From Psychromonas sp. B3M02 (GTDB taxonomy: Bacteria > Pseudomonadota > Gammaproteobacteria > Enterobacterales > Psychromonadaceae), in assembly GCF_003318165.1 (NCBI RefSeq), contig NZ_QOCB01000145.1:1-35192 (forward strand): a DNA stretch of 35,192 nt, in the 5' to 3' direction. The position numbers were made by a program, and so were the translations under genes. Of the stretch, positions 127 through 24,072 are shown in pieces. The first letter of the stretch is position 1, and each line of letters begins with the position of its first letter. Under the pieces are notes generated by a model. That model had not been told where the DNA came from. It was given only the letters and a program-made list of their open reading frames with translations, and searched no databases.

Positions 127-3100
127 TTAATTGATGTTGGGTCCTAACCATCGCTCTGCTGTTTGCATATCCCAACCTTTACGTTGCGCATAATCTTCTA
201 CTTGGTCTTGCTGAATACCAGCAATAGCAAAGTAACGACTTTCAGGATGAGAGAAGATCCAGCCCGATACTGCGGCACCTGGATACATGGCATAACTTGA
301 TGTTAACTGCATACCAATCTTTTGTTCTACATTCATCAAATCCCAAATAACTGCTTTTTCACTATGTTCAGGACAAGCAGGGTAACCAGGGGCAGGACGA
401 ATACCTTGATATTTTTCTCGGATTAAATCATCATTATTTAAAGTTTCATCGGCAGCAAAACCCCAATACTCTTTACGCGTTTTCTGATGTAGATACTCAG
501 CAAAAGCCTCAGCTAAACGATCACATACAGCCTGAACTAGGATGGCATTATAGTCATCATTCTCTGCTTTATAACGATCAGCAACTTCTCGCTCACCAAT
601 CCCGCCTGTTACCGCAAAGGCAGCAATATAATCAGCCACACCGGTTGATTTAGGAGCAACATAATCAGCTAATGAATGGTTAACAAACGGAGCTTTTTTC
701 TCGGTTTGCTGACGTAATTGATTACTCACTTGCAACACAGTTGAACGTGTTTCATCACTGTAGATTTCTATATCATCACCGACGCTATTTGCAGGAAAAA
801 TACCTACTATGCCCGATGCGCTAATTTCTCCAGCTGCTTCTACTGTATCTAACATTTTTAATGCATCAGCAAATAAGCGTGTTGCCTCTTCACCAACAAC
901 CTCATCTTTTAATATACGCGGGTATTTACCTGCTAATCCCCAAGTCATAAAGAATGGAGTCCAATCAATATATTCGCGTAAGACATTGATCGACATATTT
1001 TTAATCACTTGCACGCCTAACTGATTAGGCACTTTAGGTTGATAATTAACCCAATCAAGTTTAGCTGAATTAGCACGTGCTTGCGTCAATCCAATAGGTG
1101 CACTACGTGGGCGTTTATTCGCATGCTGCTCACGTACACGCTGGTAATCTTGATTTAATTTTTCAACGAATTCAGGTTTATTTTTGGGGCTTAATAGTTT
1201 TTGACAAACACCCACGGCACGAGAAGCGTTAGAAACATAAACCACAGGCTCATCGTAGTTTTGTTCTATTTTCACAGCGGTATGTGCTTTAGAGGTTGTT
1301 GCGCCACCAATCAATAATGGTAACTTCAGACCTTGACGTTGCATCTCTTTAGCAACATATACCATCTCATCTAAGGACGGCGTGATCAGACCTGATAAAC
1401 CAATTAGATCAGCCTTTTCAGCAATCGCGGTTTTAATAATAGTTTCAGTCGATACCATTACACCCAGGTCAACGATCTCATAGTTATTACATTGTAAAAT
1501 AACCCCTACAATGTTTTTACCAATATCATGAACATCACCTTTTACAGTCGCCATCACCACTTTACCATTGGTTGCTCCAACCGCTTTAGTGGCTTCAATA
1601 AATGGGTTTAAATAAGCAACCGCTTGTTTCATAACACGGGCTGATTTAACCACTTGTGGTAAAAACATTTTACCTTCGCCGAATAAATCACCAACGATAT
1701 TCATTCCATCCATTAACGGCCCTTCAATCACTTCAATAGGCATATCAAAGGCTTGACGGGCTAATTCGGTATCTTCTTCAATAAACTCAGTAATACCTTT
1801 AACTAACGCATGGGCAATACGTTCATTCACTGGCAGGTTTCGCCATTCAAGGGCTTTACCGTCATCGACTTTTACTGCACCATCACCACGGTATTTTTCA
1901 GCAATATCCAGTAATGCATCAGTGGCGTTAGGATTACGATTTAATACCACGTCTTCCACTGCATCTTTTAATTCTTTTGGAATATCGTCATAAATGGCTA
2001 GTTGGGCCGCATTAACAATCCCCATGTCCATACCATTTTGAAAACAGTAATACAGGAATACTGCATGGATCGCTTCACGTACTGGGTTATTACCACGGAA
2101 GGAGAAAGATACATTAGAAACACCACCAGAAATCATCGCATGTGGTAGGTTATCTTTAATGTCTTTTACCGCGTCAATAAAATCAACGGCATAGTTATTA
2201 TGTTCTTCAATACCAGTTGCAACGGCAAAAATATTAGGGTCAAAGATAATATCTTCAGGTGGAAAGCCTACTTGGTTAACCAAAATATCGTATGAACGTT
2301 CACATATTTCATATTTACGTTCACGTGTATCAGCCTGACCAACTTCATCAAAGGCCATGACAATCACAGCAAAACCGTAACGACGAATTAGTTTGGCTTG
2401 ATGGATAAAATTATCAACACCCTCTTTCATACTGATAGAGTTAACAATACCTTTACCTTGTACGCACTTAAGGCCTTCTTCTAAAATTTCCCATTTAGAA
2501 GAATCTACCATAATCGGCACGCGCGAAATATCAGGTTCAGAGGCACATAGGTTTAAGAAACGTTTCATGGCAAATAATGAATCAAGCATCGCTTCATCCA
2601 TATTGATATCAATAATATCAGCGCCAGCTTCCACTTGATGCAATGCAACCTCAAGGGCTTCATCGTATAACTCATCTTTAATTAAACGTTTAAAACGTGC
2701 CGAACCCGTTACGTTAGTACGTTCACCAACGTTTTGGAAAAGAGAATCAGCTCGTATTGTTAATGCTTCTAAACCACTTAAACGACAGGCTACTTCTATT
2801 TCAGGTAACTCACGTGGTTTAACGCCAGCAACGGCATCAGCCATCGCTTTAATATGTGCAGGCGTAGTACCACAACAACCACCCACTAAATTAAGGAAAC
2901 CACTTTCAGCCCACTCTTTTATATGGACCGCCATTTCATCCGCTTCTAAATCATATTCACCAAAAGCATTAGGTAAACCGGCATTGGGATGAGCAGACAC
3001 ATACGTTTCTGAAATACGTGACATCTCTTGCACATATTGACGTAACTCATCAGGACCTAAAGCACAGTTCAAACCAAAGGTTAATGGTTCTGCATGACGT

Positions 3101-3810
3101 AATGAGTTGTAAAATGCTTCTGTAGTTTGGCCCGATAAAGTACGACCCGATGCATCGGTGATCGTCCCTGAAATCATCACAGGCAATTTATAACCTAGCT
3201 CTTCAAATACGGTTTCTACTGCAAAAACAGCGGCTTTAGCATTCAAGGTATCAAAAATAGTTTCAATCAGAATTAAATCACTGCCACCTTTAATCAAGGC
3301 TTTAGTTGATTCAATGTAAGCAGTTACTAGTTCATCAAAGCTAACGTTACGAAAAGCAGGATCGTTCACATCAGGAGAAATAGAACAAGTACGGTTAGTT
3401 GGGCCTAAAACACCTGCAACAAAACGTGGACGGTCAGGCATTTCATCGGTTTTTTCATCGGCAACACGACGCGCAATACGCGCAGCTTCATAGTTAATTT
3501 CAGCAGAGATAGATTGCATATCGTAATCTGCCATGGCGATGGTCGTTGCATTGAAAGTATTAGTTTCTAGGATATCAGCGCCAGCATCTAAGTACTGACG
3601 ATGAATATTAGCAATCACTTCAGGTTGTGTGATCACCAATAAATCATTATTACCTTTTAAGTCACAGCTCCATTCTTTAAAGCGTTCGCCGCGAAAATCA
3701 GCTTCTTCAAATTTCTGATCCTGGATCATGGTGCCCATGCCACCATCTATCAGAAGAATATGTTTTTCTAATTGCGCTTTTATCATCGCACTACGATCAC
3801 TTACCGACAT
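127..3810 (-). CDS. metH: Cobalamin-dependent methionine synthase MetH
   Basis: Transfers the methyl group of 5-methyltetrahydrofolate to homocysteine through enzyme-bound cobalamin, giving methionine and tetrahydrofolate in the cytosol. The protein has the four MetH modules in order: a homocysteine/zinc domain (GGMGTM near the start, GLNCALGP, then [10 protein letters not shown] supplying the zinc cysteines), a pterin-binding domain ([11 protein letters not shown]), a cobalamin domain with the B12 motif DVHDIG followed by GLSGLITPS, and a C-terminal AdoMet reactivation domain with [13 protein letters not shown] chose the ATG at 3810, which gives 1227 residues, the same length as E. coli MetH, and an N-terminus aligning with MSSKVEQLRAQL. 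It has a CAGGGAA ribosome site 5 nt upstream. A longer in-frame start at 3894 adds 28 residues with no match to the family. It is transcribed alone, probably under MetR control. Confidence 0.98.
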
Positions 3811-3932
3811 AGAGTTCCCTGTTTCTTTTATTCTGAATAAAAAATGAGTGAAAATAATAGCATAGAAGTTGAGCTCATAATCTTTTAAAGGCATTTCTAT
3901 CTTGAAATATTCTGTTATAAATTATGAATTTT

Positions 3933-3960
3933 TTGATAGTTGTTTGCTGATAAAGGTCAA
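3933..3960 (-). promoter_or_regulatory. Predicted metH sigma-70 promoter
   Basis: On the minus strand there is a TTGACC -35 element (3955-3960, 5 of 6 to consensus), a 16-nt spacer, and a TATCAA -10 element (3933-3938, 4 of 6). The promoter lies about 125 nt before the metH start, directly downstream of the MetR-type box. This means metH need not depend on any transcript from the metA side. Confidence 0.5.
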
Positions 3961-4131: not shown

Positions 4132-4164
4132 AAAAAAAGCGAGCCATTACGATAGCTCGCTTTT
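4132..4164 (-). terminator. Strong intrinsic terminator in the metA-metH gap
   Basis: A perfect 10-bp stem, AAAAGCGAGC (4135-4144) with GCTCGCTTTT (4155-4164), has a 10-nt loop. On the minus strand it is followed by seven T residues, while on the plus strand only four T follow. It therefore works best for a minus-strand transcript arriving from the 4165-4500 region. It is more than 550 nt beyond the metA stop, which suggests a transcript of its own. Confidence 0.75.
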
Positions 4165-4494
4165 GAATAATTTTTTTAAGTAGTAAAGAACGTGTATGAC
4201 TGTGAGTTTACCAATCACAATCTATATTAAAAGCAAATATGAACGGTGCCCGTTGGCAATGCGTTTGCTAAATAATGAAACGCCTAGTGTTGATATTCGC
4301 TTTTAAAAAAACCAAAAAACTTAATAATAATCAAACCTCCAGTGTCAATGAGTACAACCGGTATCAATCATATAAAAATCAACTTGAATGCTCTTTGAGC
4401 CAATGAGTCCTTAAATTAACAACTCAGTAATAGTTGATTGCTTATACACCGGTACGCGTAATAATTAAAAATAACTGTACCTCCATAATCTCTT
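4132..4494 (-). ncRNA. Candidate structured ncRNA with two tandem three-way-junction units
   Basis: No protein-coding frame is convincing here. Two units of the same secondary structure lie 144 nt apart. Unit A (4227-4306) has an outer stem pairing 16 of 18 positions (4227-4244 with 4289-4306), an inner hairpin 4247-4258, and a 6-bp hairpin 4261-4283. Unit B (4357-4453) has an outer stem built from 4357-4362/4448-4453, 4371-4374/4443-4446 and 4377-4384/4432-4439, with inner hairpins 4390-4400 and 4404-4426. Shared marks sit at exactly the same spacing: CAATG (4257 and 4401), TTGAT (4290 and 4434) and ACCTCCA (4335 and 4479). Strand and ends are inferred from a minus-strand TATAAT at 4501-4506 and the terminator at 4132-4164. 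I do not recognise it as any known RNA family. It could instead be a remnant of a mobile inverted repeat. Confidence 0.45.
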
Positions 4495-4500
4495 GATTAA

Positions 4501-4529
4501 ATTATAAAAATTTATTTTATTAACGTCTT
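4501..4529 (-). promoter_or_regulatory. Possible promoter of the candidate ncRNA
   Basis: On the minus strand there is a perfect TATAAT -10 element (4501-4506), a 17-nt A/T-rich spacer, and AAGACG as a weak -35 element (3 of 6). Transcription would begin near 4494, just before unit B. In AT-rich DNA a TATAAT can occur by chance, so the call is tentative. Confidence 0.3.
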
Positions 4530-4577
4530 TAGAAAGCCCATTACAAACAACAAACTCTCTCTAGGAACCTGTTTTTG

Positions 4578-4592
4578 TAACAACGATTGTTA
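4578..4592. promoter_or_regulatory. 15-bp palindrome TAACAA-CGA-TTGTTA
   Basis: A perfect 6-bp dyad with a 3-bp centre, lying about 90 bp upstream of the predicted start of the candidate ncRNA and about 130 bp beyond the end of metA. It has the size of a repressor or activator operator, but I do not recognise the family. Confidence 0.3.
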
Positions 4593-4720
4593 TCACAAGA
4601 GTAAATGTAACTGTTAACTCCCTTACTCATAAATAAGTATAGGAAGGGTTTTCAATTTAGCTAGTATTTTTAATAAATAAATTTAAAAAATTTTTTTAAG
4701 TAAGCTTTATAACCCTATCA

Positions 4721-5638
4721 CTACGTTAAATCTGTTAGGTCATATGGCGTTACCTGATAAACACAATAGTTTAGCCAGTTACTATATAAGAGGTTGCCAT
4801 GACTACGCCAAATCGCTCTTGGCGGTTGGTTTGCATCATCTTGCGGATAATAATTTATCGGCAATTCAGGCTCTAAACCTTCTTCTAAATCTCGCAAGTA
4901 CTCATTATGTAAAGTACTCGCATCATATTCAGGATGACCCGTAATATACACTTGACGACAATCTGGGCTAGCAGCTAAATACACACCCGCTTCTTTTTCA
5001 TCTGCAAAAACCGTTAGGTCGGTTTTTTCTTGAATTTCAGCGCTATCAAACTCAGCGTAACGTGACAAAGGAGCCCAAAACTCATCATCAAAACCACGTA
5101 CTAAAGGATGTTGATGGTGATGTGTTTTATGTGGATAAATGCCTGATAATTTATCATCGCGTGTCACTTTATCCAGGTCATAAAATATTTTTAACGCCGC
5201 TTGTGCCGCCCAACATAAAAATAATGTTGAGGTAACATTGTGGCGAGACCACTCAACAATTTCAGTAAACTTTTCCCAGTAGTAAACATTTTCAAAGGGG
5301 ATAGTACCTAGAGGTGCGCCAGTAATAATAAAACCATCCCATTTTTGTTCTTTAAGGCGCTCAAAGTCGCCGTAAAACTTATCTAAATGTTTTTGAGGCG
5401 TATTACGGCTAGCGCGTGCATCTACACGCAATAACTCAATATCAACTTGCAAAGGTGTATTAGACAACAAACGCATCAATTGTGTTTCTGTTTCAATTTT
5501 TTTCGGCATTAAGTTCAAAATTAATACACGTAGCGGACGGATATTTTGGTGACTTGCCCGTGTCTCGGACATCGTAAAGATGTTCTCAGATTTTAAAATA
5601 CTCGATGCAGGTAAATCGTCTGGAATACGAATTGGCAT
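4721..5638 (-). CDS. metA: Homoserine O-succinyltransferase MetA
   Basis: Activates homoserine by acyl transfer, the first committed step of methionine synthesis. The 305-residue protein aligns along its length with E. coli MetA, from [11 protein letters not shown] to the C-terminal YDLTDL. Catalytic residues are visible: acyl-accepting Cys142 in [10 protein letters not shown], and His235 and Glu237 in GHPEYD. Residue 111 is Gly (GAPLG), the state associated with succinyl-CoA rather than acetyl-CoA use. The ATG at 5638 has an AGAGGAAAC ribosome site. The gene is preceded by tandem MetJ boxes, so repression by MetJ with S-adenosylmethionine is expected. No good T-tailed terminator follows the stop, only A/T-rich dyads at 4682-4700. 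Confidence 0.97.
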
Positions 5639-8682: not shown

Positions 8683-9162
8683 TTAATAACTTAATGTTAA
8701 ACGGTTAATTTTTACTAAACCTTGCACTTTGTCTTGGCTTAAATCGGCACTATTAATTTTCACTTTATGCTGATTTTGTAGGCTAGTTATCCAATCAATA
8801 AACTGGTTAAATTCAATTTGATTTATCCAGACATCCACTGTGTCGTTACGACTTTGAATACGCGTTATATTAATTTGGTTACGTTTAGCACTGCTATTGA
8901 TGAGTTGTGACAATGTTTGTCTTTTACCTGTGTCTTGATTAACTCCACCAGCACTGATCACTTTATTAGCATTCACTTTCACCCATTCTAAGCTTTGTTG
9001 TGCGTTCTTAAGTTGTTGTTCGCTGGCCGCTAAGTTGTTCGCTAAGGGTTGCCACACAATAAAGTAGATAAAAGCAATAAACAGAATAACCGCAGAAATA
9101 AAGGTAAGTTGTTGCTCTCTTTGGCTAATGCTTTCCCACCAATCTTTAATTTGTTCAAACAT
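8683..9162 (-). CDS. gspM: Type II secretion protein GspM
   Basis: Bitopic inner-membrane protein that pairs with GspL and stabilises the assembly platform. The 159 residues give a short cytoplasmic head (FEQIKDWWESISQREQQ), one membrane segment (about 19-38, ending IVWQPL) and a periplasmic coiled/ferredoxin-like part. The head and WQPL motif resemble Vibrio EpsM. The start codon overlaps the gspL stop by one base (TAATG), so translation is probably coupled. Confidence 0.93.
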   Translation of the reverse strand: MFEQIKDWWESISQREQQLTFISAVILFIAFIYFIVWQPLANNLAASEQQLKNAQQSLEWVKVNANKVISAGGVNQDTGKRQTLSQLINSSAKRNQINITRIQSRNDTVDVWINQIEFNQFIDWITSLQNQHKVKINSADLSQDKVQGLVKINRLTLSY

Positions 9163-10361
9163 TATTTAACCCTCACAGTCACTGTACCCGCGATACGATC
9201 TGCATTATTACCTAACGTTCCCTGCTCAAAATTATAACGAGATGGTACATTAGCAGCGAATTGCTCAAAGGCTTGGAAACTATTTGCACTGATTGTTAAG
9301 CTCAGCTCTTGATTTCTACTGGTGTATTTTAAGTTGGAAATATTGATACTTGGTACCGCTTTTAAAGCAGGCAGTAGGTCATTTAAAATAATCAATAGGC
9401 CTGTCTCTTCTTGATCAACATTAGTGCTTGCTAAGAGAGTTTTTAATCGCTTTTTAATACGGCTGTATCTTAATCGACCTTGTTCAGGGAAAGCAGCTTG
9501 GTAAACATCTTCTACCTGTGATTTAACCACTAAGGTTTGCTGTTCAGTCTGCTCTATTTTCACAAATAGATTAACCACTAATACTACAAATAATATCCCG
9601 GCAGCAACCGCTACCCCTTTCCATTTATGTAGCTGTAAGTGGTTTTCTTTATGTACTGCAAATTCACCCGTTAATAAATTGGACTGATTATGAATAGCGC
9701 CTTCACTTAACAGCTGCATAGGCAATACAGGCGATGCTGCGACCCATTGTCCTACTGGAATATCAGGCAGAGGGCTATAGCTTTGAATCACTTGTTGTGT
9801 ATTTTGTTGTAAACGTAAGGCAAGTACATCGGCAAGCATTTCATCTTCACAACTCCAAGCCTGGAAAGCACTTTCTCGAATCAACCATTGCTTGCCTTGT
9901 TGTAAAGCTTGCCATTGTGTTTCATCTGCGGATGGTAATGCTAGCGCTTCAGGAATTAAACGCTGACAGAATATTTCAGCGGCCTCTAACCAATCTAACC
10001 AAAGTTGCACTTTAGATTTAAAACAGATAGCCACTTCAATTTGATCGACTTTTTTAGACAACACAGAAAAATGTAATTTATCTACATCACTGGCTAACTC
10101 ATCCTCAAGCATATAAGGTAAGGCTTGTTGTAGTTGACGTGTAAAGTTGCCCTTAATCGCTACCGACTTTAAGGTAATATCAACACTCGGCGCTAAACAA
10201 ATGACTTTACGTGTTTGTGCTTTTTCAGTTAATAAGGTTAAGGCTTCTGCATTATCTAATTCGCCAGAAGCAATAATTTCTTGTTCTTTCTCAGACCATA
10301 TTAACCAATGAATTGTCTGATGTGCTTCACTTGCTAGGCGAATAATTAATTGTTCACTCAC
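9162..10361 (-). CDS. gspL: Type II secretion protein GspL
   Basis: Links the GspE ATPase to the inner-membrane platform. At 399 residues it has the expected layout: an actin-like cytoplasmic domain (about 1-240), one membrane helix (about 249-268, GVAVAAGILFVVLVVNLFV) and a periplasmic ferredoxin-like domain at the C-terminus. Translation begins at GTG, overlapping the gspK stop (GTGA), with GGAGAGG upstream; the non-ATG start and overlap suggest coupling to gspK. The N-terminus would bind GspE and the membrane helix would pair with GspM. Confidence 0.94.
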   Translation of the reverse strand: MSEQLIIRLASEAHQTIHWLIWSEKEQEIIASGELDNAEALTLLTEKAQTRKVICLAPSVDITLKSVAIKGNFTRQLQQALPYMLEDELASDVDKLHFSVLSKKVDQIEVAICFKSKVQLWLDWLEAAEIFCQRLIPEALALPSADETQWQALQQGKQWLIRESAFQAWSCEDEMLADVLALRLQQNTQQVIQSYSPLPDIPVGQWVAASPVLPMQLLSEGAIHNQSNLLTGEFAVHKENHLQLHKWKGVAVAAGILFVVLVVNLFVKIEQTEQQTLVVKSQVEDVYQAAFPEQGRLRYSRIKKRLKTLLASTNVDQEETGLLIILNDLLPALKAVPSINISNLKYTSRNQELSLTISANSFQAFEQFAANVPSRYNFEQGTLGNNADRIAGTVTVRVK

Positions 10362-11368
10362 TGAGCCTCTCCAGCGCCAACCAACTCATCTATCCCTGCA
10401 TATTGGAATCGAATCTCGGTGGCTTCTTCACTCTCTATATTAAATAATAGCTTTAATACTATTACACGTTGGTCAAATTCTGCTGCACCATAAAATTGAA
10501 AATAATCACTGGTGACACTTAATTGCGCTTGTTCTTCATCAGAAATTGACTCTCCATCCAATAAATCTTCAGATAAGAACTCCTCTACCGATTCCCAACC
10601 ACTGGTAGGTCTATCATCAATAAGCTCTTCAAAATCTTCCACACTAAAATCTAAATCTTCTGAAAACAGCGAATATAATAAAGCCGCTTTATCTTGCCTG
10701 ACCGTATTCACATTAATCAACTGTTCAGAGGTGGGTAATGCACATAAGTAATCTTTAATGTTTTCGTAAATTTCCGCTGTGACACCTTGCACAGAACGTA
10801 ACTCTGAAATATCGACCATTAAGTTGTTTGCGGTTAAATGTGGTACTTGCAAAGATTCGTAATAACGATCTTCAGCCCCTTCTGATTCATCTGCTGAATC
10901 ATCGCTATCAACCCAATCTCGCGCAGATTCAACAATCGTATCTGCGGTACCTTCTTCTACATCTAACTCTTCTAACAAACGTTTTAATTGGCTAACCGCT
11001 AATGGTTCGTCATCTTCATCATCGTCTTCCTGAGTTGCTAATGCATTGACATTAAAGCAACTTCTGAAGTCCACCATATTGCCGGTGATTTGACCTTCAT
11101 CCACGGGAAACACTAAATCTGGCGTTGCCCAAGTTTGATTTAAGCTCACAATATCACTGTCTTCAAAATCATCTTCTAAAATCATTCGGCTGAATTCAAC
11201 CGTAGCTTGCCCGTACCAATAAATTTTGTCTGAGTAGTTCACTCCCTCAGTACGTAATAAACTAGAGGTCATTCTACCCGTCATGGTAGAAGCAACCGTC
11301 ACCATGATCGCTAAGATCATTAGTACTGTGATTAATGCGATGCCCTGTTGTTTATGCGGCGCTGACAT
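10358..11368 (-). CDS. gspK: Type II secretion minor pseudopilin GspK
   Basis: The large minor pseudopilin thought to cap the pseudopilus tip together with GspI and GspJ. The 336 residues begin with a short prepilin leader cut after Gly9 (QQG|IALITV). The position-5 Glu found in the other pilins is absent, which is characteristic of GspK and fits a tip position. A large alpha-helical insert domain follows, here very acidic (for example EDDDEDDEP and ESEGAED), as expected for calcium-binding GspK. The stop overlaps the gspL start, and the start overlaps the gspJ stop by one base. Confidence 0.94.
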   Translation of the reverse strand: MSAPHKQQGIALITVLMILAIMVTVASTMTGRMTSSLLRTEGVNYSDKIYWYGQATVEFSRMILEDDFEDSDIVSLNQTWATPDLVFPVDEGQITGNMVDFRSCFNVNALATQEDDDEDDEPLAVSQLKRLLEELDVEEGTADTIVESARDWVDSDDSADESEGAEDRYYESLQVPHLTANNLMVDISELRSVQGVTAEIYENIKDYLCALPTSEQLINVNTVRQDKAALLYSLFSEDLDFSVEDFEELIDDRPTSGWESVEEFLSEDLLDGESISDEEQAQLSVTSDYFQFYGAAEFDQRVIVLKLLFNIESEEATEIRFQYAGIDELVGAGEAQ

Positions 11369-12006
11369 TAATCTCCGACCTCACTAGCCGCTAAGATAAA
11401 TACCCGTCTTAGCTCGCCATAATGTTTACTGTTGATGGTGATCTCAATCCCCGTTGGTAATTCAGAGTTGGATGACCATGTTGTTACCCAGGTATCATCC
11501 CAAAAACGAAAAGATAACCCTTCCACATCATTTAAAATAACTTGTTGTTCAGTCTCTTCACCGGAAATAGTATCCGGATGTAAATAATATAAACGTTGTA
11601 ACTGGCCATCTTGAACACGATAACCAACACGTAACACATTAGATCGAGGTAATAAATTAAGTGGGTTAAACCAGCCTAAACGATTAAACTCAATCCCTTC
11701 ATATTCAGAATCTAGAATTCCATCTCCAGCATATAAAACTTGTAAATCTTCGTCGTCAGTCCCTTCGGTACGCGATGTTCTAGCAACCATTTGCACAAAA
11801 TCCCGCTCTATCAACAACATGCCGCGTTGGATCTCTTTTAAGTTTTGATCATGTTCACGACTTATTTCACCGCTACGTAATACACCTTGCAATATCTGAT
11901 AAGCAGCAAAGCTGAGCATGGCAAAAATAGCAATGGCGACCAGGATTTCAACTAAGGTGAAACCTTGATTTTTTGAGATACGCTGACCTTGTTTATTGTG
12001 CAACAT
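11368..12006 (-). CDS. gspJ: Type II secretion minor pseudopilin GspJ
   Basis: Minor pseudopilin that forms the tip complex with GspI and GspK. It is 212 residues long, with the prepilin peptidase site after Gly15 (KNQG|FTLVEILVAIAIFAML), Glu at position 5 of the mature protein, and the usual hydrophobic N-terminal helix. The 14-bp overlap with gspI suggests translational coupling. Confidence 0.95.
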   Translation of the reverse strand: MLHNKQGQRISKNQGFTLVEILVAIAIFAMLSFAAYQILQGVLRSGEISREHDQNLKEIQRGMLLIERDFVQMVARTSRTEGTDDEDLQVLYAGDGILDSEYEGIEFNRLGWFNPLNLLPRSNVLRVGYRVQDGQLQRLYYLHPDTISGEETEQQVILNDVEGLSFRFWDDTWVTTWSSNSELPTGIEITINSKHYGELRRVFILAASEVGD

Positions 12007-12385
12007 AAGTCCTTATATACCCCAATGCTTGACCATCTTTTGTATCACTCACTTCAACATCTAATGCTCTAAAACTATTATTGCTGGTTTTCACACCTTT
12101 GTAGCGTAAATACCATGTTACACCAGCAAACTCGACCTCTTCTTCTTCCCAGTTTAAACCAGGCCACTCTTCCTCTATTTTTAGTTCAGCAAGGCGATTA
12201 CTAGCAATCCAGGTGGCAAAGGTTTTTTGTTGTAAATAGTCCTGATTACGTAAGGATTCAGAAGCTGCCTGCATTACAGCTAACCCTGCAGTCGCTAAAA
12301 TAACCAAGGCTAACATCACCTCTAATAAGGTCATGCCCGCTTGCTGTTGAATGCTTTTTTTAGCGTTAGCTTTATTCACCGTCAT
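11993..12385 (-). CDS. gspI: Type II secretion minor pseudopilin GspI
   Basis: Minor pseudopilin that initiates the pseudopilus tip with GspJ and GspK. Length 130 residues. The prepilin site lies after Gly17 (QQQAG|MTLLEVMLALVILA), with Met at mature position 1 as is common in GspI. It overlaps both neighbours by 14 bp. Confidence 0.95.
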   Translation of the reverse strand: MTVNKANAKKSIQQQAGMTLLEVMLALVILATAGLAVMQAASESLRNQDYLQQKTFATWIASNRLAELKIEEEWPGLNWEEEEVEFAGVTWYLRYKGVKTSNNSFRALDVEVSDTKDGQALGYIRTYVAQ

Positions 12386-12971
12386 ACTCTTTAATCACAT
12401 CGATCACACCGGTCATGGACACCTTAACGGTGACATCATGGCTAGTATCACCTGTATTAAAGAAGGTATAACTAAAGGGAGTCACTTCGCCACTCGCCAT
12501 AATATAAATCACAGGTTGCAATGTGCTCTGCTCTTCCTCACCAATATTTACACGCTCAGAGTCACTAATAAATGAATCATCGGTTGCACTATTTTGTACT
12601 GCTTCTAATTCACCCCAAACACTACCGGATAAATCAAATTCAGCGAGCATATCATCAGGAAATGTCACATCGCCTTTAATACGCTCATCAACAATCGGTA
12701 TCCACTGCTTAGTGGTTACATCATAAGATGTGAAGGTATAACCCTGTTCATTAAACTGAATACCAAACTCTGTATTTAAAATAAGAGCCTGATCTTGAGC
12801 AAGCTGCACCAAAGTGGTAAAACGTTGGGCATGCCATTCAGTGCTTTCAGTAGTACTGCCGCTACTGGGTAAAGTCATCACTACGCTAACAGAAACCATA
12901 CCGAGTAATAACAGTACTAGCATGACTTCTAATAGCGTGAAGCCTCGATTGCGATGTCGCAACATGCGCAC
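12372..12971 (-). CDS. gspH: Type II secretion minor pseudopilin GspH
   Basis: Minor pseudopilin linking the tip complex to the GspG shaft. The 199 residues have a prepilin site after Gly10 (RNRG|FTLLEVMLVLLLLGMV). The start shown is a GTG with AGGA 4 nt upstream. An ATG two codons later (12965) has a spacing of 10 nt and is equally possible; both leave a short basic leader. The C-terminal part is longer than in some GspH proteins and rich in Ser/Glu. Confidence 0.92.
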   Translation of the reverse strand: MRMLRHRNRGFTLLEVMLVLLLLGMVSVSVVMTLPSSGSTTESTEWHAQRFTTLVQLAQDQALILNTEFGIQFNEQGYTFTSYDVTTKQWIPIVDERIKGDVTFPDDMLAEFDLSGSVWGELEAVQNSATDDSFISDSERVNIGEEEQSTLQPVIYIMASGEVTPFSYTFFNTGDTSHDVTVKVSMTGVIDVIKEYDGE

Positions 12972-12984
12972 TTAATCCTAGTGA

Positions 12985-13425
12985 CTATTTATCAAGTAAA
13001 TTCCAGTTACCGATATCATCATCAGTACCCTCTTCACCATCTAGACCCACAGATAGAATATCGATTTTGCCGTTTTCACCTGGGCTATTTAAGACATAAT
13101 CATTACCCCAAGGGTCTTGTGGAAGACGTTTAATATAACCATCTTCACGGTAATTACGTGGTGTTGGTGACACGCTTGGCTCTGATACTAACGCTTCTAA
13201 GCCTTGGTCTGTTGTTGGATAAACGCTGTTATCTAACTTATACATATCCAGAGAATTCTCTAAAGCAACGATATCTGATTTCACCTTTTGGATATCAGCT
13301 TTGTCTTTGTTACCGATGAGATTAGGTACCACCATAGCTGCTAATACACCTAGGATCACGATAACCACCATGATCTCCAGTAAAGTAAAACCTTTTTGTT
13401 GTTGCGTTGAAGTTGATTTTTTCAC
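12985..13425 (-). CDS. gspG: Type II secretion major pseudopilin GspG
   Basis: Major subunit of the pseudopilus. The 146 residues are highly typical: leader cut after Gly12 (QQKG|FTLLEIMVVIVILGVLAAMVVP), then VYPTTDQGLEALV and RLPQDPWGNDY. An acidic C-terminal loop, DGEEGTDDDIGNW, matches the calcium site needed for GspG stability. Translation starts at GTG with AAGGA 7 nt upstream. The 37-bp gap from gspF is one of the larger gaps of the operon. Confidence 0.97.
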   Translation of the reverse strand: MKKSTSTQQQKGFTLLEIMVVIVILGVLAAMVVPNLIGNKDKADIQKVKSDIVALENSLDMYKLDNSVYPTTDQGLEALVSEPSVSPTPRNYREDGYIKRLPQDPWGNDYVLNSPGENGKIDILSVGLDGEEGTDDDIGNWNLLDK

Positions 13426-13462
13426 TTTCTTGTCCTTTTTTATTTTCTGAGAAATGGTTCAG

Positions 13463-14677
13463 CTATCCTGATACCAAATTATTAAGCGCTAATATTGGTT
13501 GTAAAATTGCGGCAACAATAAACAACACAACACCCGCCATGGAAATAACTAATGCCGGCTCAAACAAACCTAATGCTAATGTCACTTGCGCCGAAAACTG
13601 TTTATCTTGATTATCTGCTGAACGTTCTAACATATTACCTAACTCACCGCTACGCTCACCACTAGCAATCATATGTAACATCATAGGTGGGAACAGCTTC
13701 GTACTGGCTAATGCTCGCCCTAAACTTGTCCCTTCTCTGACTCGTTCAGCCGCCTCTCCTACTTTTAAACGTATATGTAGATTACTTAATACATTACCAG
13801 CAATGCTCATGGCTTCAAGCAAGGGAACTGAACTGCTATTTAAAATGCTTAATGTTCTGGCAAAACGTGCTGTATTAAGTTCATTCACCACTTTACCAAT
13901 AACTGGAAAATTAAGCAGAGCACGATCAAATCGTAGCTGATTTTTAGCTTTTCGTAAGTAATGCTTAAATAATAAAAAGGCGATAATACACAAGCCAACA
14001 AAATACAAACCATAAGCGCTCAGTGCATCACTGGTAGCAATGAGAAATTTAGTCGAGGCAGGTAGGTCAGCGCCCATATGTTGGAATTGCCCAACAACTT
14101 GTGGCACCACTGAAGTTAATAGAATCGCCACCACTGAAATAGCCACCAGCGTTAATACGATTGGGTAGATCAACGCCTGCATCATCTTGCTTTTCATCTC
14201 TTGGCGCTGTTCTTCGTAATCTGCGAGTCTATCTAATACTTTTTCTAAATGACCAGACTTTTCACCCGCTGCCACCATCGCACAAAACAGGTTATCAAAG
14301 ATCATCGGGTAATTACGCATACTATCGGCTAGACTATAACCTTCGATAACACCACCACGTACCGCCGAAATCATATCTTTAATTTTTGGCTTATCGCATT
14401 GGTCAGCAACCGCTTGTAACGATTCTTCAATGGGAATCGATGAGGCCACTAAAGTAGAAAGCTGGCGGGTAATAAGCGCTAAATCGGTGGTTTTTATCTT
14501 GGTTTGAATAAAACTTTTACCAGCTTTTTTACGTTTTGCAGCAATCGCCTCCACTTCTAGCGGCATCATGCCTGCATTACGTAACTGCTGCCGTAGCATA
14601 CGTGCAGAATCAGCTTCTTGCGTGCCTTTTTTCTGTTTGCCTTTTGCGTCTATCGCTTTATAAGAAAAAGTAGCCAC
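13463..14677 (-). CDS. gspF: Type II secretion inner-membrane platform protein GspF
   Basis: Polytopic core of the inner-membrane platform. The 404 residues contain two repeated cytoplasmic T2SSF domains (about 70-190 and 270-395). Membrane segments lie near residues 170-190, 217-237 and 375-397. Family motifs include AMVAAGEKSGHLEKVLDRLADY in the first repeat (shown in part) and MIASGERSGELGNMLERSA in the second. It is separated from gspE by one base. Confidence 0.96.
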   Translation of the reverse strand: MATFSYKAIDAKGKQKKGTQEADSARMLRQQLRNAGMMPLEVEAIAAKRKKAGKSFIQTKIKTTDLALITRQLSTLVASSIPIEESLQAVADQCDKPKIKDMISAVRGGVIEGYSLADSMRNYPMIFDNLFCAMVAAGEKSGHLEKVLDRLADYEEQRQEMKSKMMQALIYPIVLTLVAISVVAILLTSVVPQVVGQFQHMGADLPASTKFLIATSDALSAYGLYFVGLCIIAFLLFKHYLRKAKNQLRFDRALLNFPVIGKVVNELNTARFARTLSILNSSSVPLLEAMSIAGNVLSNLHIRLKVGEAAERVREGTSLGRALASTKLFPPMMLHMIASGERSGELGNMLERSADNQDKQFSAQVTLALGLFEPALVISMAGVVLFIVAAILQPILALNNLVSG

Positions 14678-14678
14678 A

Positions 14679-16199
14679 CTAATCCTCTCTTGTTACACGT
14701 AAAATCTCTTCTAACGTTGTTAGACCAGCCATTACTTTCTGGATACCATCGTCGCGAATGCTTTCTGAGGTTTTACGAATTTCACGCTCAATAGCCTGTT
14801 CACCTGCACCAGTATGGACAAGTTCACGCACTACTTCATTGACCACTAACAGCTCATGAATACCGGTACGTCCACGATATCCAGTGTGATTACATTGCAC
14901 ACAGCCGTCAGGGCGATAAATAATCGCTTGTTCATCTTCCGCTTTCCCTAAAATCACTTTTTCAGAATCAGTAGCAGAATGAGCAACTTTACAATGTGGA
15001 CATAAACGACGTACTAAACGTTGCGCAAGCACACCTAGAATACTCGATGATAAAAGGAAAGGCTCTACACCCATATCATGTAAACGAGTTACTGCACCAA
15101 CTGCAGTATTAGTGTGTAAGGTAGATAATACTAAGTGACCAGTTAAACTGGCTTGTACGGCGATCTCTGCAGTTTCTAAGTCACGGATTTCACCAATCAT
15201 CACCACATCAGGATCTTGACGTAAAATCGCACGTAAACCACGTGCAAAGGTCATATCTACCTTGGTATTAACTTGTGTTTGACCAATGCCATCGATGGCA
15301 TACTCAATAGGATCTTCAACAGTAAGAATGTTCCTATCGCGCGAGTTTATCTCTAATAACCCTGCATAAAGCGTGGTACTTTTACCTGAACCCGTTGGGC
15401 CCGTTACTAAGATAATACCGTGTGGTTTATGAATTAAATTTTGTAGTAATTTATGGTTTTTAGGCGTCATTCCTAGCGTAGATAAATCCAGCTTAACGGC
15501 ATTTTTATCCAATAAACGTAGTACTACGCGTTCACCGTGGCTCGCAGGCATGGTTGATACACGTACATCAACAGCACGACCACCAATACGTAATGAAATA
15601 CGACCATCCTGCGGAATACGCTTTTCAGCAATATCCAATTTAGCCATTACTTTAATACGAGAGACTAATAGCGCTGCTAACTTGCGTTGCGGTTTTAGTA
15701 TTTCACGTAAAACACCATCGATACGGAAGCGAATAACCAAGGTTTGTTCAAAGGTTTCAATATGAATATCCGATGCTTCTTCTTTAATCGCTTCACCTAA
15801 CATAGCGTTGATCAACTTAATGATCGGCGCATCATCTTCGGCCTCTAGTAAATCATCATCGGCAGGCAATTCTTCAGCTAGGGTAAAGAAATCATCAGCC
15901 CCCAAATCTTCCATTAGTTGCTGCGCTTCCAATGAAGAAGATTGATAAGCACGCGCAACTAACCTATCAAAGGTTTCATTGTCCACCTGTTGGGTACTAA
16001 AAGCATGACCTATCACACGTCTTGCCTCGACTAATAACTCCACTGAAGGTGGTTGTTTAAAACACAAAGTACTATTCGGACCGTCGTGGGACATCACCAA
16101 TTCATGCTTTTTAGAGAAAGTAAAAGGCAATTGCCCCGAAGGTGTAAACTCTACAACCTCCGGATCTAATGCACTATCGACATCACTCACATTATTCAT
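14679..16199 (-). CDS. gspE: Type II secretion ATPase GspE
   Basis: Cytoplasmic hexameric ATPase that powers pseudopilus growth. The 506 residues include an N-terminal GspL-binding domain, the Walker A motif GPTGSGKS (about 267-274), an Asp box, the Walker B region [12 protein letters not shown] (about 329-340), a His box (STLHTN), and the zinc-binding tetracysteine CPHC...CVQC (Cys400, 403, 433, 436) that separates GspE from most PilB-type relatives. The start overlaps the gspD stop by 4 bp (ATGA). Confidence 0.97.
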
Positions 16200-18202
16200 A
16201 TCGCTTTATCCGCTTTTTCTAAATCAATCTCGTGATTACTTTCACGCTCTGACTTTAAAAACGTTCTTGGATCAATTTCAACGGACTCACCCCAATGTGG
16301 CAACAGTGGGACCTCAGTTTCAGGCATTAGTGCAACACCATCAACACCTTGGCTCAGCTGTATTTGACGCATTAAGCCATACTTACGTTGGCTGAGTTGC
16401 ATCATAGTTTCATCGTCACGAATAATCGTTGCACGTAAGAACACCATTAGATTGCGTTTTTCAGTAGAACTTTGAGTAGAACGGAATAACACACCAAGGT
16501 ATGGGATATCACCTAACCATGGCACTTTATCTATCGTCTCATTCACTTCTTCATCGATTAAACCACCAATTACAATGGTTTCACCTGATTTAGCTAACAC
16601 AGAGGTTTTCACTGAACGTGTAGCAAACACCACATCCACTGACGTTTGACCTTGAATACTTGATACCTCTTGTTCAATGACCATTTGCACCGAATCACCT
16701 TCATTGATCTGAGGCGTCACTTTTAACTTAATACCAACCTCTTTACGTTCAATGGTCTGGAATGGATTATCGTTAGAAGTGCTCGATGTAGAGCCTGTTA
16801 ATACCGGTACTTCGTCACCAACAATAAAGCTTGCTTCTTGATTATCAAGCGTCGTAATACTCGGTGTTGCCAAGATATTTGAAGTACTGGTAGAACTTAA
16901 TGCCTGAATAATCACAGCCCAATCACTGTTCACATAACCGGCTACACCACCTGAAATAGAAGATAACGCACTTGATAGATCTTCATAGTCATCTTCATCA
17001 TTATCAATGGCATATACACCCGTCGCTAAATCAGTTAGCGATGCACCGTTGTCGTTAAATTGAGTACCTAAACCTGAAGTACTACCCCATTGAACATTTA
17101 AACGAACACCGTCACCTTCAGACACTTCTACAATAATAGCTTCCACTAACACTTGCGCACGGCGAATATCCAACTGGTGAATAATGCTAGTTAATGACGA
17201 CATTAACGCAGGTTGTGCGGAAATGATGATCGAGTTAGTTGGTTCATGTGCTTGGATATTTAAATTAGAATCGTTACTACTATTGCTCGATTTCTTCGAA
17301 GAAGGGTCTTCTAGACCTTTACTAACGCCTGTTAATACCTGAGCGACTTCTTTTGCATCAGCATATTTAAGGTAGAAAACACGTGTGTTACCGTTATTTT
17401 TCAGTTCACTATCTAAAGACTTGATCAGTTTGATGACACGGCTTCGCGTACTTGGCTCACCACTCACAATCACTGAGTTAGTTCTTTCATCGGCGACTAA
17501 ACGTGGTTTAAGTACACTCGTAGAACTGCTTTTAGAGCTGGTTGAGGTTTCTTGAATAGAGTTGATCATATTAACCATGTCGAGGGCACTGGCAAATCGC
17601 AACTTAACAATATCCACTTCTTGGTCACCGGCTTTATCCACACGATGAATAATTTTCACTAAACGATTTACTACCGCCGCACGACCAGTGATCATAATAA
17701 CGTTTGAAGGGTCGTAATGCACCACGTTACCGCCACCAGCACTATCATTTAATTGACGTAATAAAGGCGCAAGCTCTCTTACTGATACATTGATAACAGG
17801 TACAACACGGGTAACCATCTCATCGCCTTTGTACTCACTGTCATCGTCGATAACCGGAATCGCAGCAACCTTCGCATCTTTGGATTTAATGACTTTAATG
17901 ATGCCGTTATCCATTTCAACAATCGCAAAACCATATACTTCTAATACATTTAAGAAGAATTGGTAATATTGGCTTTCATTAAGTAGGTCATAACTACGTA
18001 CATTAATTTTACCGCGTACTGATGGGTCTAAAATGATGGTTTTATTTAAGTTTTTACCAACAATATTAATAAACTCATTTAAATCAGCATTTTTAAAACT
18101 AGCAGAATACTCTGCAGCTTCTACTACAGCAGACTGTGAAAACAAAACAAAAACACTAGCCCCCAAAAAGCTAACCAGTCTTTTCTTTATTCCTAACATC
18201 AT
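16196..18202 (-). CDS. gspD: Type II secretion secretin GspD
   Basis: Outer-membrane secretin that forms the exit channel. The 668-residue precursor has a signal peptide (cleavage near Ala29/30, VVEAA), the N0 domain ([22 protein letters not shown], shown in part), N1-N3 domains with repeated TNSVIVSG / [10 protein letters not shown] motifs, and the C-terminal secretin domain ending with [15 protein letters not shown] Ser/Asn-rich loop ([13 protein letters not shown]) lies in the N3 domain, as is usual. No pilotin gene is in the window. Two adjacent ATGs could start translation; GAGG lies 5 nt before the first. Confidence 0.97.
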
Positions 18203-18296
18203 TACAACCTCATTGCTTGCTACTTCTGCTTATAATCTCGCTATTAATATATTATGACAATTAATAGTTCAGCGACTAAAACTTTATTTATTATTA

Positions 18297-19160
18297 TTAT
18301 GGAATACTAAAATATAATTCATTCAATTCACCATCACGGTCAATTGTTAAACTCATCTCAGTCATAGTTGGAAATTCTTTCATTAAACCTACTGCTTGGG
18401 TGATATCGGTTAAATCCACCCCATTTAATTCAACCGCTAAATCACCGGCTTTTAATCCGGCTTCTTCGAATAGCTCCGGATTCTTACCTGGGTTAACACG
18501 ATATCCCTTAATTTGGTCACCTTCTCTTACTGGCGAAATACGCACGTAATCAAGCAACTTACCGGGGTCATCGACTAACTCATCTCTATCTAACGGGATC
18601 TCTTTTACTTTTGAAGCGCGGCTACTACGTTTATTGCTGCTCGTGGATCTTTTAGCACGTACTTCTTCGCCTTTTTCCAGCTTAGCTAAACGTTCGTTTT
18701 CCTCTTCTAAGCCATCTAGAATCAAAGTTTGTTCTTCGCCATCCACATTAATAATAATACGGTCTTGATAGATCTCCGTGACCACTGCATCTGTACCAGG
18801 GATTTCAGAGTCAATAAAATAACTATCTTGAGAACGCTTATATTCGATGATAACACTAGAAAGTCTTGGGTCGGTGGCAGCAACTATGCCAACTAAGGTA
18901 AGTTTTAAACGCGTTTTAGGGGCTTCAATCTGTTCTTGTTGATAAACGATGCTTTTCCCTTGATAACGACCAAAAATAGCTTGTTCCTGTAATTTTTGGG
19001 TACTTAATCTATTACTCTCATTCACTTTTCTTTCAGTGGTTGGTGTCCAATTATGGCTACTTTCTGACTCTGGATAGATAGATAAGGTCAATAATGCAGA
19101 CTGGTAAGCTACCGAGCTACAGATCACTGCCAATAATATTTGGGGTAGTATGGAAATCAT
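18297..19160 (-). CDS. gspC: Type II secretion protein GspC
   Basis: First gene of the operon. GspC connects the inner-membrane platform to the periplasmic N0 domain of the secretin. The 287 residues include one N-terminal membrane helix (about 4-22), a linker, the HR domain (about 85-155, LTLVGIVAATDPRLSSVIIEY, shown in part), a basic Ser/Arg-rich stretch (AKRSTSSNKRSSRASK), and a C-terminal PDZ domain (about 195-287) involved in substrate choice. The 94-bp gap to gspD is the largest in the operon, and no terminator is visible in it. Confidence 0.95.
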   Translation of the reverse strand: MISILPQILLAVICSSVAYQSALLTLSIYPESESSHNWTPTTERKVNESNRLSTQKLQEQAIFGRYQGKSIVYQQEQIEAPKTRLKLTLVGIVAATDPRLSSVIIEYKRSQDSYFIDSEIPGTDAVVTEIYQDRIIINVDGEEQTLILDGLEEENERLAKLEKGEEVRAKRSTSSNKRSSRASKVKEIPLDRDELVDDPGKLLDYVRISPVREGDQIKGYRVNPGKNPELFEEAGLKAGDLAVELNGVDLTDITQAVGLMKEFPTMTEMSLTIDRDGELNELYFSIP

Positions 19161-22879: not shown

Positions 22880-23494
22880 ATGAAAACTTGGTTAGCATTG
22901 TTATGCTGTGGCTTATCATTAACTGCTTGTGGCAGTAGCTCTTCAAATAGTAGCGGCACAGTAGAGGCAGAGGCAACAAGCAATACAAGTAGCACGGCAG
23001 TGCAAACAGACTCAACGGAAACAAGTACTGACGAAACCACAGATTCAACCGATTACAGCGCAATGAGTTGCGAAGATAACTTAATTGAAGCGTTAACTCT
23101 GATTAATCAACTACGAGCCGAGTCACAAACCTGTGGAGCGACCACTTACCCTGCCGTAGATGCCGTCACTTGGAGTTCAGCATTAACCTTGGCTGCAGAA
23201 GAGCATTCTTCAAATATGGCTAACTATAATTTCTTTAGCCATACCGGTTTAGATGACAGCACAGTTGGTACCAGAGTCACAGCACAAGGTTATGAGTGGA
23301 GCTACGTTTCTGAGAATATCGCTGCCGGTCAAACGTCAGTGCAAGATGCAGTAGATGGTTGGATGGAAAGTGAAGGTCATTGTATTAATATTATGAGTGA
23401 AAATGCACAGGAGATGGGTCTAGCTTGCGCAGTGAATAGCGATGCAGACTATCAATATTATTGGACACAGGTATTTGCTAAACCATTACAATAA
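22880..23494 (+). CDS. CAP/SCP-domain lipoprotein (YkwD-like)
   Basis: A predicted lipoprotein of 204 residues. A type II signal peptide with lipobox LTAC puts the lipid on Cys17, followed by Gly/Ser, so sorting to the outer membrane is likely. Residues 18-65 are a low-complexity Ser/Thr/Glu linker. From about 70 to the end is a CAP domain: NQLRAESQTCG, LTLAAEEHSSNMA, FFSHTGLDDST, YVSENIAAGQ and VDGWMESEGHCINIM, with the His/Glu/His set of the family. Bacterial CAP proteins of this type are common and mostly uncharacterised. I chose the ATG at 22880, with AAAAGGGAC upstream, because it starts a proper signal peptide. The start at 22832 would add a charged extension. Confidence 0.88.
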   Translation: MKTWLALLCCGLSLTACGSSSSNSSGTVEAEATSNTSSTAVQTDSTETSTDETTDSTDYSAMSCEDNLIEALTLINQLRAESQTCGATTYPAVDAVTWSSALTLAAEEHSSNMANYNFFSHTGLDDSTVGTRVTAQGYEWSYVSENIAAGQTSVQDAVDGWMESEGHCINIMSENAQEMGLACAVNSDADYQYYWTQVFAKPLQ

Positions 23495-23499
23495 AAGAA

Positions 23500-23538
23500 A
23501 AAGTAAGGAAGTGCTTTTAATAACAACTTCCTTACTTT
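23500..23538. terminator. Bidirectional terminator
   Basis: A perfect 13-bp stem, AAAGTAAGGAAGT with ACTTCCTTACTTT and a 13-nt loop, lies between the convergent CAP-domain gene and the scsD-like gene. Short A/T runs flank it on both sides. Confidence 0.7.
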
Positions 23539-23550
23539 AAAAGATATCGC

Positions 23551-24072
23551 TTAACTTAATAGCATTCTTGCCCACATGCCAAATGGGCTAGTAAAACCAG
23601 TGGTTACCGCAGTAATTTCACCTTTATCTACCACAATTAAAGTGGGTGTTAAGCTAATGCCCCAAGTTCGACTGATCACCGCTTTAGGATCATTTAGTAC
23701 CGTAAAATCATAATCTTTTGCATTCAGGTATTGTTGTACACGCTCTTCACTTCCTGAACTCAAAGCAATACTCACCACTTGCATACCATCGCTAACAAAG
23801 TTCACCGAAGGTGACACTGTCGTACAAACACTACACCAAGTTGCCCAGAAATAGACTAGTACTGGCTTTTCTTGGCTCATGGCAATCAAATCAACCTGCT
23901 CACCTTGCACGCTAGTTGCCACTAATGCAGGTGCTTTACCTGATGCTATTGATTGAGCTCGCCATAAATCAACACCCCAACCTAATGCGAAGGCTAGCAG
24001 TATATAAATAGCACCGGACTTAAGGTGACTACCCCAGCCTTTTTTAGGCTTTTTAACATTTTCATCAGTCAT
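23551..24072 (-). CDS. Membrane-anchored thioredoxin-like protein, ScsD-like
   Basis: A thioredoxin-fold protein of 173 residues facing the periplasm, with an N-terminal membrane anchor (about 21-36). The active site is WATWCSVC (Cys80, Cys83) and the cis-proline motif is LTPTLIVV. It resembles ScsD/TlpA-type redoxins, which exchange electrons with a DsbD-like partner. Its ATG lies one base after the scsB-like stop, so the two form an operon and probably a redox pair. TlpA or a DsbE-like reductase are other possible names; no cytochrome c maturation genes are nearby. Confidence 0.85.
   Translation of the reverse strand: MTDENVKKPKKGWGSHLKSGAIYILLAFALGWGVDLWRAQSIASGKAPALVATSVQGEQVDLIAMSQEKPVLVYFWATWCSVCTTVSPSVNFVSDGMQVVSIALSSGSEERVQQYLNAKDYDFTVLNDPKAVISRTWGISLTPTLIVVDKGEITAVTTGFTSPFGMWARMLLS

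Follow-up and report, generated by a model that had tools for sequence, protein, structure and literature searches.

A duplicated structured RNA in the metA–metH interval of Psychromonas, a putative free-standing noncoding RNA gene

The metA–metH interval

The contig of Psychromonas sp. B3M02 analysed here in full (35,192 nt, the window) carries metA and metH on the minus strand, and the RNA locus described below adjoins metA in the gap between the two genes (Table 1). Relatives share the metH start adopted here (AGGGAACTCTATG), which is preceded by AGGGAA; a mechanical list of open reading frames puts the start at 3894, an ATG that gives a longer frame. An initial annotation, made from the letters of this stretch, had noticed two tandem three-way-junction units in the gap. 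Their location is real, but the strand had been left unspecified (the minus strand is favoured for the RNA) and the limits were too short, as the locus extends from 4132 to 4664. From the candidate promoter, transcription would be expected to start near 4629. Between the end of the terminator and the metH start lie 322 nt, and a conserved stretch within them was, by eye, very similar in relatives, including G007, where the RNA is absent; it is perhaps a metH promoter or regulator site.

Table 1. Features of the RNA locus and its surroundings, in window coordinates unless a locus is named (clades 1 and 2 as in the text)
Feature	Position	Strand	Sequence	Basis
metA	4721–5638	−		HTS domain
Candidate promoter	4636–4664	−	CTAGCT, 17 nt, TATACT	Position and 17-nt spacing kept in relatives
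RNA 5′ part, weakly conserved between clades	4487–4629	−		Alignments
Unit B	about 4350–4486	−		Covariation in clade 1 and clade 2
Unit B tract, then AU-rich stretch	4484–4480	−	GGAGG	
Unit B P1	4455–4448 / 4362–4352	−	GTACCGGT / ACCGGTTGTAC	
Unit B P2	4432–4439 / 4377–4384	+ strand letters	AGTTGATT / AATCAACT	
Unit B P3	4426–4422 / 4408–4404	−	TGAGT / ACTCA	
Unit B P4	4400–4397 / 4393–4390	−	GCTC / GAGC	
Unit A	4218–4342	−		Covariance models and covariation
Unit A tract, then AU-rich stretch	4340–4336	−	GGAGG	
Unit A P2	4304–4293 / 4240–4229	−	AAAAGCGAATAT / ATATTTGCTTTT	
Unit A P3	4283–4278 / 4266–4261	−	GCGTTT / AAACGC	
Unit A P4	4258–4255 / 4250–4247	−	TGCC / GGCA	
3′ domain, short in the window species, with an extra closing stem in relatives	4165–4217	−		RNAalifold, both clades
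Intrinsic terminator	4132–4164	−	AAAAGCGAGCTATCGTAATGGCTCGCTTTTTTT	13-pair stem and T run; counterparts in relatives
Conserved stretch outside the RNA, between its terminator and metH	3901–3943	−		Relatives, by eye
metH	127–3810	−		Methionine synthase domains
RNA at its second location	L095:3894–4400; L096:4712–5345			

Tandem units in the window sequence

The repeats that had been listed at exactly 144 nt recur as claimed (CAATG at 4257 and 4401, TTGAT at 4290 and 4434, ACCTCCA at 4335 and 4479), and TAAAT and GCTT recur at 143 and 141 nt, within the claimed 3 nt. CAATG occurs once more at 4346 and TTGAT at 4493, both absent from the initial annotation. Among offsets of 100–200 in positions 4200–4490, 144 was the best, matching 23 bases in words of at least 5, a value reached by 1 of 300 dinucleotide shuffles (mean 11.4, s.d. 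2.4). The named stems are present in unit A (GCGTTT 4261/AAACGC 4278 and TGCC 4247/GGCA 4255) and in unit B (TGAGT 4404/ACTCA 4422 and GCTC 4390/GAGC 4397), and the shape said to be common to the two units forms in the minimum-energy folds of both.

Two covariance models were built, R1 from 11 unit A sequences of clade 2 and R2 from 23 unit A sequences. The window unit A scored 42.5 bits with R1, in which it is not included, and 90 bits with R2, in which it is. The folding energy of the single sequence was mildly unusual (z of −2.3 and −2.2), and the window unit B reached a chance-match score with R1 (23.3 bits, compared with 23.2 bits for the unrelated stretch 23577–23476); we therefore took the proof of the units from covariation in relatives. 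The intergenic stretch 23476–23577 is a hairpin that gave 23–25 bits with R1 and R2; it probably matches by chance or is a terminator.

A conserved fold supported by covariation

RNAalifold, run separately on 9 genomes of clade 1 and 11 of clade 2, drew one architecture shared by unit A and unit B in both clades. The four sets had z scores of −5.9, −9.1, −5.8 and −6.3, and in none of them did any of 100 column shuffles reach the observed value. Across 23 unit A sequences, in an alignment (A5) fitted to the structure by R1, 92.7% of 641 cells were paired, compared with 38–44% for slid structures; double-sided changes were seen at 18 of the 28 pairs (97 cells), and none of five measures was reached in 500 shuffles (0/500). 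In the MAFFT alignment of clade 2 unit A (11 sequences), 93.2% of cells were paired and 9 of 28 pairs were doubly changed, with the further pair types matched by 9 of 500 shuffles.

For unit B, 20 of the 23 sequences were taken in. The nine of clade 1 were 90.8% paired with double changes at 11 of 29 pairs; the clade 2 set (11 sequences, including G004 and G011 and excluding L029, L031 and L097) was 87.0% paired with double changes at 13 of 35 pairs, and its further pair types were matched by 29 of 500 shuffles. Because A5 was fitted to the structure, and the unit B structures were predicted from the very alignments counted (a short 5′ pairing drawn by RNAalifold being excluded), both counts lean towards the structure. 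Joint MAFFT alignments over the two clades, which are offset by one base and fold poorly for that reason, gave no fold for unit B and 8 pairs only for unit A, so the clade-wise sets and A5 were used instead. Together, the 23 unit A sequences and the unit B sequences of both clades bear out the earlier proposal that compensatory change keeps two three-way-junction units.

In clade 2, RNAalifold drew a longer 3′ domain with a further closing stem. This stem is claimed mainly from RNAalifold, because an automatic check chose the wrong strands in about half of the 22 sequences. A AATGGAGTACAAGCGCTGATGGATGGCGAAAG-like segment is conserved in the clade 2 3′ domain (L036 and others) and is absent from the clade of the window.

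Units A and B are copies of one fold

R1 detected unit A in 23 loci, that of the window included, all at E ≤ 2.4e-8. Both models, built from unit A alone, also detected its neighbour: R2 placed unit B directly upstream of unit A in 19 of 23 loci, of which 15 reached E ≤ 0.05, and missed it in L020, L021, L022 and L026, with one other match in 130 kb. R1, applied to 20 loci, found it in all but L020 and gave three further matches at other places. Units A and B are therefore two copies of one fold and, on this comparative evidence, the internal duplication is older than the sampled species. Since chance matches exist, a score of 20–25 bits is of little worth alone, and the case for unit B rests on its place and its covariation.

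Distribution within and beyond the genus

The RNA was found in 23 of 24 Psychromonas genomes, so that the homologues with covarying pairs for which the initial annotation had suggested looking in related genomes do exist; the genus was taken to comprise 14 contigs named Psychromonas and further genomes sharing the genus label. A DNA search of 60 genomes (that of the window included) matched 10. Besides that genome itself, matches adjoined metA in six genomes at E ≤ 1.8e-12 and in G013 at 0.0019, and weak matches away from metA were seen in G023 and G038. Comparison of the metA-to-metH gap in 21 genus genomes, again with our own, revealed a conserved block in 20, with metH within 767–1246 nt of metA in 19 of these 20 (L030 leaves its contig). 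Carriers of the RNA include P. arctica (L026) and P. hadalis (L037). The block is absent from Psychromonas sp. RZ5 (G007, locus L024), where the gap measures only 196 nt and no match was found even at E ≤ 5. In three genomes of other families with adjacent metA and metH (L040, L042 and L045), the gap is 80–95 nt.

Searches with the covariance models, run on genome samples of the order and the class under stricter Infernal filters that may miss distant relatives, returned 22 genus genomes (own included) and one weak match elsewhere for R1 in 295 genomes of the order, and the genome of the window only for R2 in 369 genomes of the class at E ≤ 1e-3. G013 carries the RNA, as found in a further search, though it is missing from the order-search matches. 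The weak match, in G177 of another family (E of 0.005 in the order search, 30.8 bits in a separate scan), was dismissed as chance, having no adjacent second unit or terminator; none of 11 other genomes of that family matched. By these searches, nothing convincing is present outside the genus among the genomes searched.

Each of the 22 matching genus genomes has one locus at E ≤ 0.01, and in six genomes searched to E ≤ 5 all further matches were at chance level. A DNA search of the genome of the window gave no convincing second copy (next best E of 0.089), and plasmid and phage collections gave no match, a clade 2 sequence having been run against the plasmids as well. Four viral contigs with a degenerate form of the motif were rejected, scoring at best 15.5 bits (E of 0.73).

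The RNA is kept apart from metA and metH

Two genus genomes, G004 and G011, yielded no metA at E ≤ 1e-60 and no metH at E ≤ 1e-50. G011 is a single contig and 99% complete; G004 counts for less, because at 79% completeness the absence of a gene is less sure. In both genomes, the two RNA units lie between a divergent fructose-type PTS gene and a SNF2/SWIM helicase gene (domains scanned in L095 alone; the L096 proteins are alike by eye). A terminator-like hairpin follows the units in L095 and L096, with a short T run in the latter, and in G011 a promoter-like CTGGTA-17-TATGCT precedes the RNA. In G017, the RNA is on a 3.2-kb contig (L097:2470–2840), apart from the contigs holding metA and metH; unit A is clear there and unit B weak. 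A further candidate near metH of G017 (L110, 25.2 bits) was rejected as a plain hairpin with a T run and without P3 and P4. An RNA kept elsewhere in genomes where metA and metH were not found is best read as its own gene, and the tie to these two genes suggested by its place in the window is not supported.

Strand, promoter and terminator

In the model-fitted alignment, 45 cells were G-U and 16 A-C, an excess that favours the minus strand as the RNA. Minus-strand folding energies were lower than those of the complement in all four sets. The reverse complement gave equally strong z scores (−6.7, −8.1, −6.2 and −7.2), as expected of paired DNA, and z thus cannot tell the strand.

A pattern written after inspection of the alignment (a YTGGYA-like hexamer, exactly 17 nt, TAYAMT) occurs upstream in 15 of 24 loci, these being the 23 with the RNA and L024 without it, which also has the pattern; by eye, five more (L020, L026, L027, L028 and L039) have a promoter-like site one letter off. 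A generic scan at its own threshold called no minus-strand promoter in the window, the candidate at 4636–4664 included, and called a strong minus-strand terminator with its stem at 4164–4135. The terminator has a counterpart in all 20 metA-linked loci carrying the RNA; none was identified in G017 (L097). In the 14 loci with both ends called, the predicted RNA is 475–739 nt long, and in the window 495, or about 500, nt. From the conserved promoter-like and terminator sequences we infer that the locus is transcribed.

Alternative explanations

The tandem arrangement had been likened to double-aptamer riboswitches and to multi-unit sRNAs. The second likeness fits tandem units of one fold. The first would make the RNA a cis-acting tandem-aptamer riboswitch or attenuator in the metH leader, as might be expected of an element that shares its strand with metH, precedes it and is closed by an intrinsic terminator, tandem aptamers being a known arrangement. 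This is very improbable and already contradicted by the relocated RNA of G004 and G011, which precedes the SNF2-type gene in genomes where metA and metH were not found, and by the layout of the gap, where the RNA's own terminator comes before the separate stretch upstream of metH that G007 keeps with the RNA absent and, in the window, 322 nt before metH itself. It is also improbable that the RNA is a processed 3′ UTR element of metA with no gene of its own: the RNA follows metA in 20 genomes and no strong terminator is evident between the two in the window, but the promoter-like site with its 17-nt spacing is kept, and is kept in G011, which has no metA match. As for a mobile palindromic repeat or MITE-like element, the outcome that the initial annotation had envisaged if matches proved to be scattered, the RNA does occupy at least three genomic places within the genus; it is barely credible nonetheless, as it is already contradicted by the single locus per matching genome, with further matches in six genomes at chance level and no convincing second copy by DNA in the genome of the window. 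The sequences show compensatory changes, not recent copying, and plasmids and phages gave no match.

A different kind of explanation is that each unit is a tiny gene, with GGAGG as the Shine–Dalgarno sequence, an AUU-like start and a peptide of about 15 residues, the junction controlling translation in a manner comparable to small type I toxins or leader peptides. The frame after GGAGG reads I-I-T-S-Y-Q-F-L-V-R (unit B, clade 2), I-I-T-S-Y-Q-F-L-E-K-S-N-K (unit A, clade 2), I-I-I-T-F-Y-H-F-I-K-S-E-C-Q-S (unit A, clade 1) and I-I-I-K-F-F-G-F-F-K-S-E-Y-Q-H (window); its start codon would be AUU, UUG or similar, and AUU starts are used by infC and pcnB. Nearly every unit A copy keeps this frame open, with a similar peptide; the UAG within a conserved UUAGGAG closes it in 15 of 23 copies (L037 by eye), but the frame overruns that UAG in 7 of 23 and stops early in G017. 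An RNAcode-like permutation test was applied with identical rows merged; the unit A sets excluded L028 and L097, and the unit B sets excluded L033, L035, L097 and most copies of clade 1. It placed frame 0 at the top in four of six overlapping sets. Frame 0 had p values of 0.029 (unit A, 19 sequences) and 0.018 (unit B of clade 2, 9 sequences), but of 0.15, 0.29, 0.089 and 0.078 in the other four sets, and in two of those frame 2 was better (p of 0.0195 and 0.045), which slightly lowers the chance of a mini-gene. Non-major bases by codon position were 7, 10 and 18 in unit B of clade 2 but a flat 13, 14 and 12 in unit A of clade 1. The window units, moreover, have no ATG start, and the unit B frame differs between the clades and is not kept in clade 1. 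A Shine–Dalgarno-led reading frame in each unit is thus a weak and mixed hint in the alignments, and we consider the tiny-gene explanation rather unlikely. Rather unlikely, too, is a dual-function genus-specific RNA that would encode two related AUU-started micropeptides of about 15 residues in tandem, each driven by a strong Shine–Dalgarno tract and under structural control.

Comparison with known RNAs

The initial annotation had recognized no known family, and none emerged here: Rfam 15 gave 0 matches over the whole window at the gathering cut-off and, for 12 loci at E ≤ 2, only L20_leader (E of 2; 23.7 bits, where the cut-off is 58.7). A literature search by genus name, which covered few subscription papers, returned no report of a structured RNA of Psychromonas. 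P. ingrahamii is named among the compared genomes in a paper that combines Psychromonas with sRNA terms (PMC5471319).

The RNA resembles CsrB and CsrC in being free-standing, a few hundred nucleotides long, built of repeated modules and closed by an intrinsic terminator, and titration is the action proposed for it below. CsrB, however, consists of many small hairpins with many GGA motifs in the hairpin loops, whereas two junctions of about 130 nt are found here. GGA, counted regardless of loop position, is not enriched in the window species, where 591 nt hold 4 copies and 5.3 would be expected; three relatives show a modest excess (9, 11 and 14 against 5.4, 7.8 and 10.4). The CsrB model (RF00018) did not match the RNA locus, and the match over the cut-off in the same genome lies elsewhere, so this identity was rejected, as was 6S (RF00013), whose own locus is at C56:48139–48322, away from the RNA. 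The CsrB-like loci of this genome are C142:44850–45227 (56.7 bits, under the cut-off of 71) and C70:31845–32208 (71.5 bits, just over it).

Glycine and c-di-GMP riboswitches occur as tandem aptamers, and in them too a pair of similar folded domains precedes a terminator; the present RNA differs in having no constant downstream gene and no Rfam match. Ibs/Sib (QUAD) are duplicated type I toxin loci that share with it tandem units of about 140 nt, a Shine–Dalgarno-like tract and possibly a tiny frame, but here structure is what is conserved and peptide coding is a hint only. The large ornate RNAs GOLLD, ROOL and OLE are in Rfam. Another duplicated type I toxin locus is zorO-orzO (PMC3919570). 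As presented in PMC12286853, GOLLD, ROOL and OLE are alike in being long structured RNAs of unassigned function and narrow distribution; unlike them, the RNA described here is built of a duplicated module, is confined to one genus in the genomes searched and has no Rfam match. Taken with the Rfam and literature results, it is a new family within a class already known in broad terms, that of free-standing structured RNAs, and its duplicated module is unusual.

Interpretation

Comparative sequence analysis establishes the fold, its duplication, the single locus and the independence from metA and metH. The explanation that we favour, and hold to be probably correct, is that the locus is a free-standing structured noncoding RNA gene of Psychromonas, read from the minus strand and composed of two modules and an intrinsic terminator. 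Both modules would have one fold, in which a GGAGG-like tract and an AU-rich single strand are combined with the long stem P1/P2 and the hairpins P3 and P4.

Such an RNA would presumably act in trans. One possibility among several for a repeated module, which we put forward tentatively, is a multivalent trans-acting binder that titrates a partner. On its rigid junction, each unit would display a single-stranded face rich in purine and AU and, because both units share that face, one RNA could hold two copies of the partner. The partner bound and titrated might be an RNA-binding protein or, through GGAGG, the anti-Shine–Dalgarno sequence of the 30S subunit. The duplicated module makes this design testable, by comparing one unit with two.

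If correct, these results mean that an RNA family with strong covariation was found from one window of raw sequence, and that Psychromonas would have a large RNA regulator which Rfam 15 lacks. The survival of the RNA where metA and metH were not found would mark it as freed from its neighbours. Were the tiny frames translated, the locus would offer a clean example of one set of bases serving both a structured RNA and micropeptides.

Elsewhere in the window, the minus strand at 9162–19160 encodes type II secretion proteins, recognized by Pfam and NCBIfam as GspC, D, E, F, G, H, I, J, K and L.
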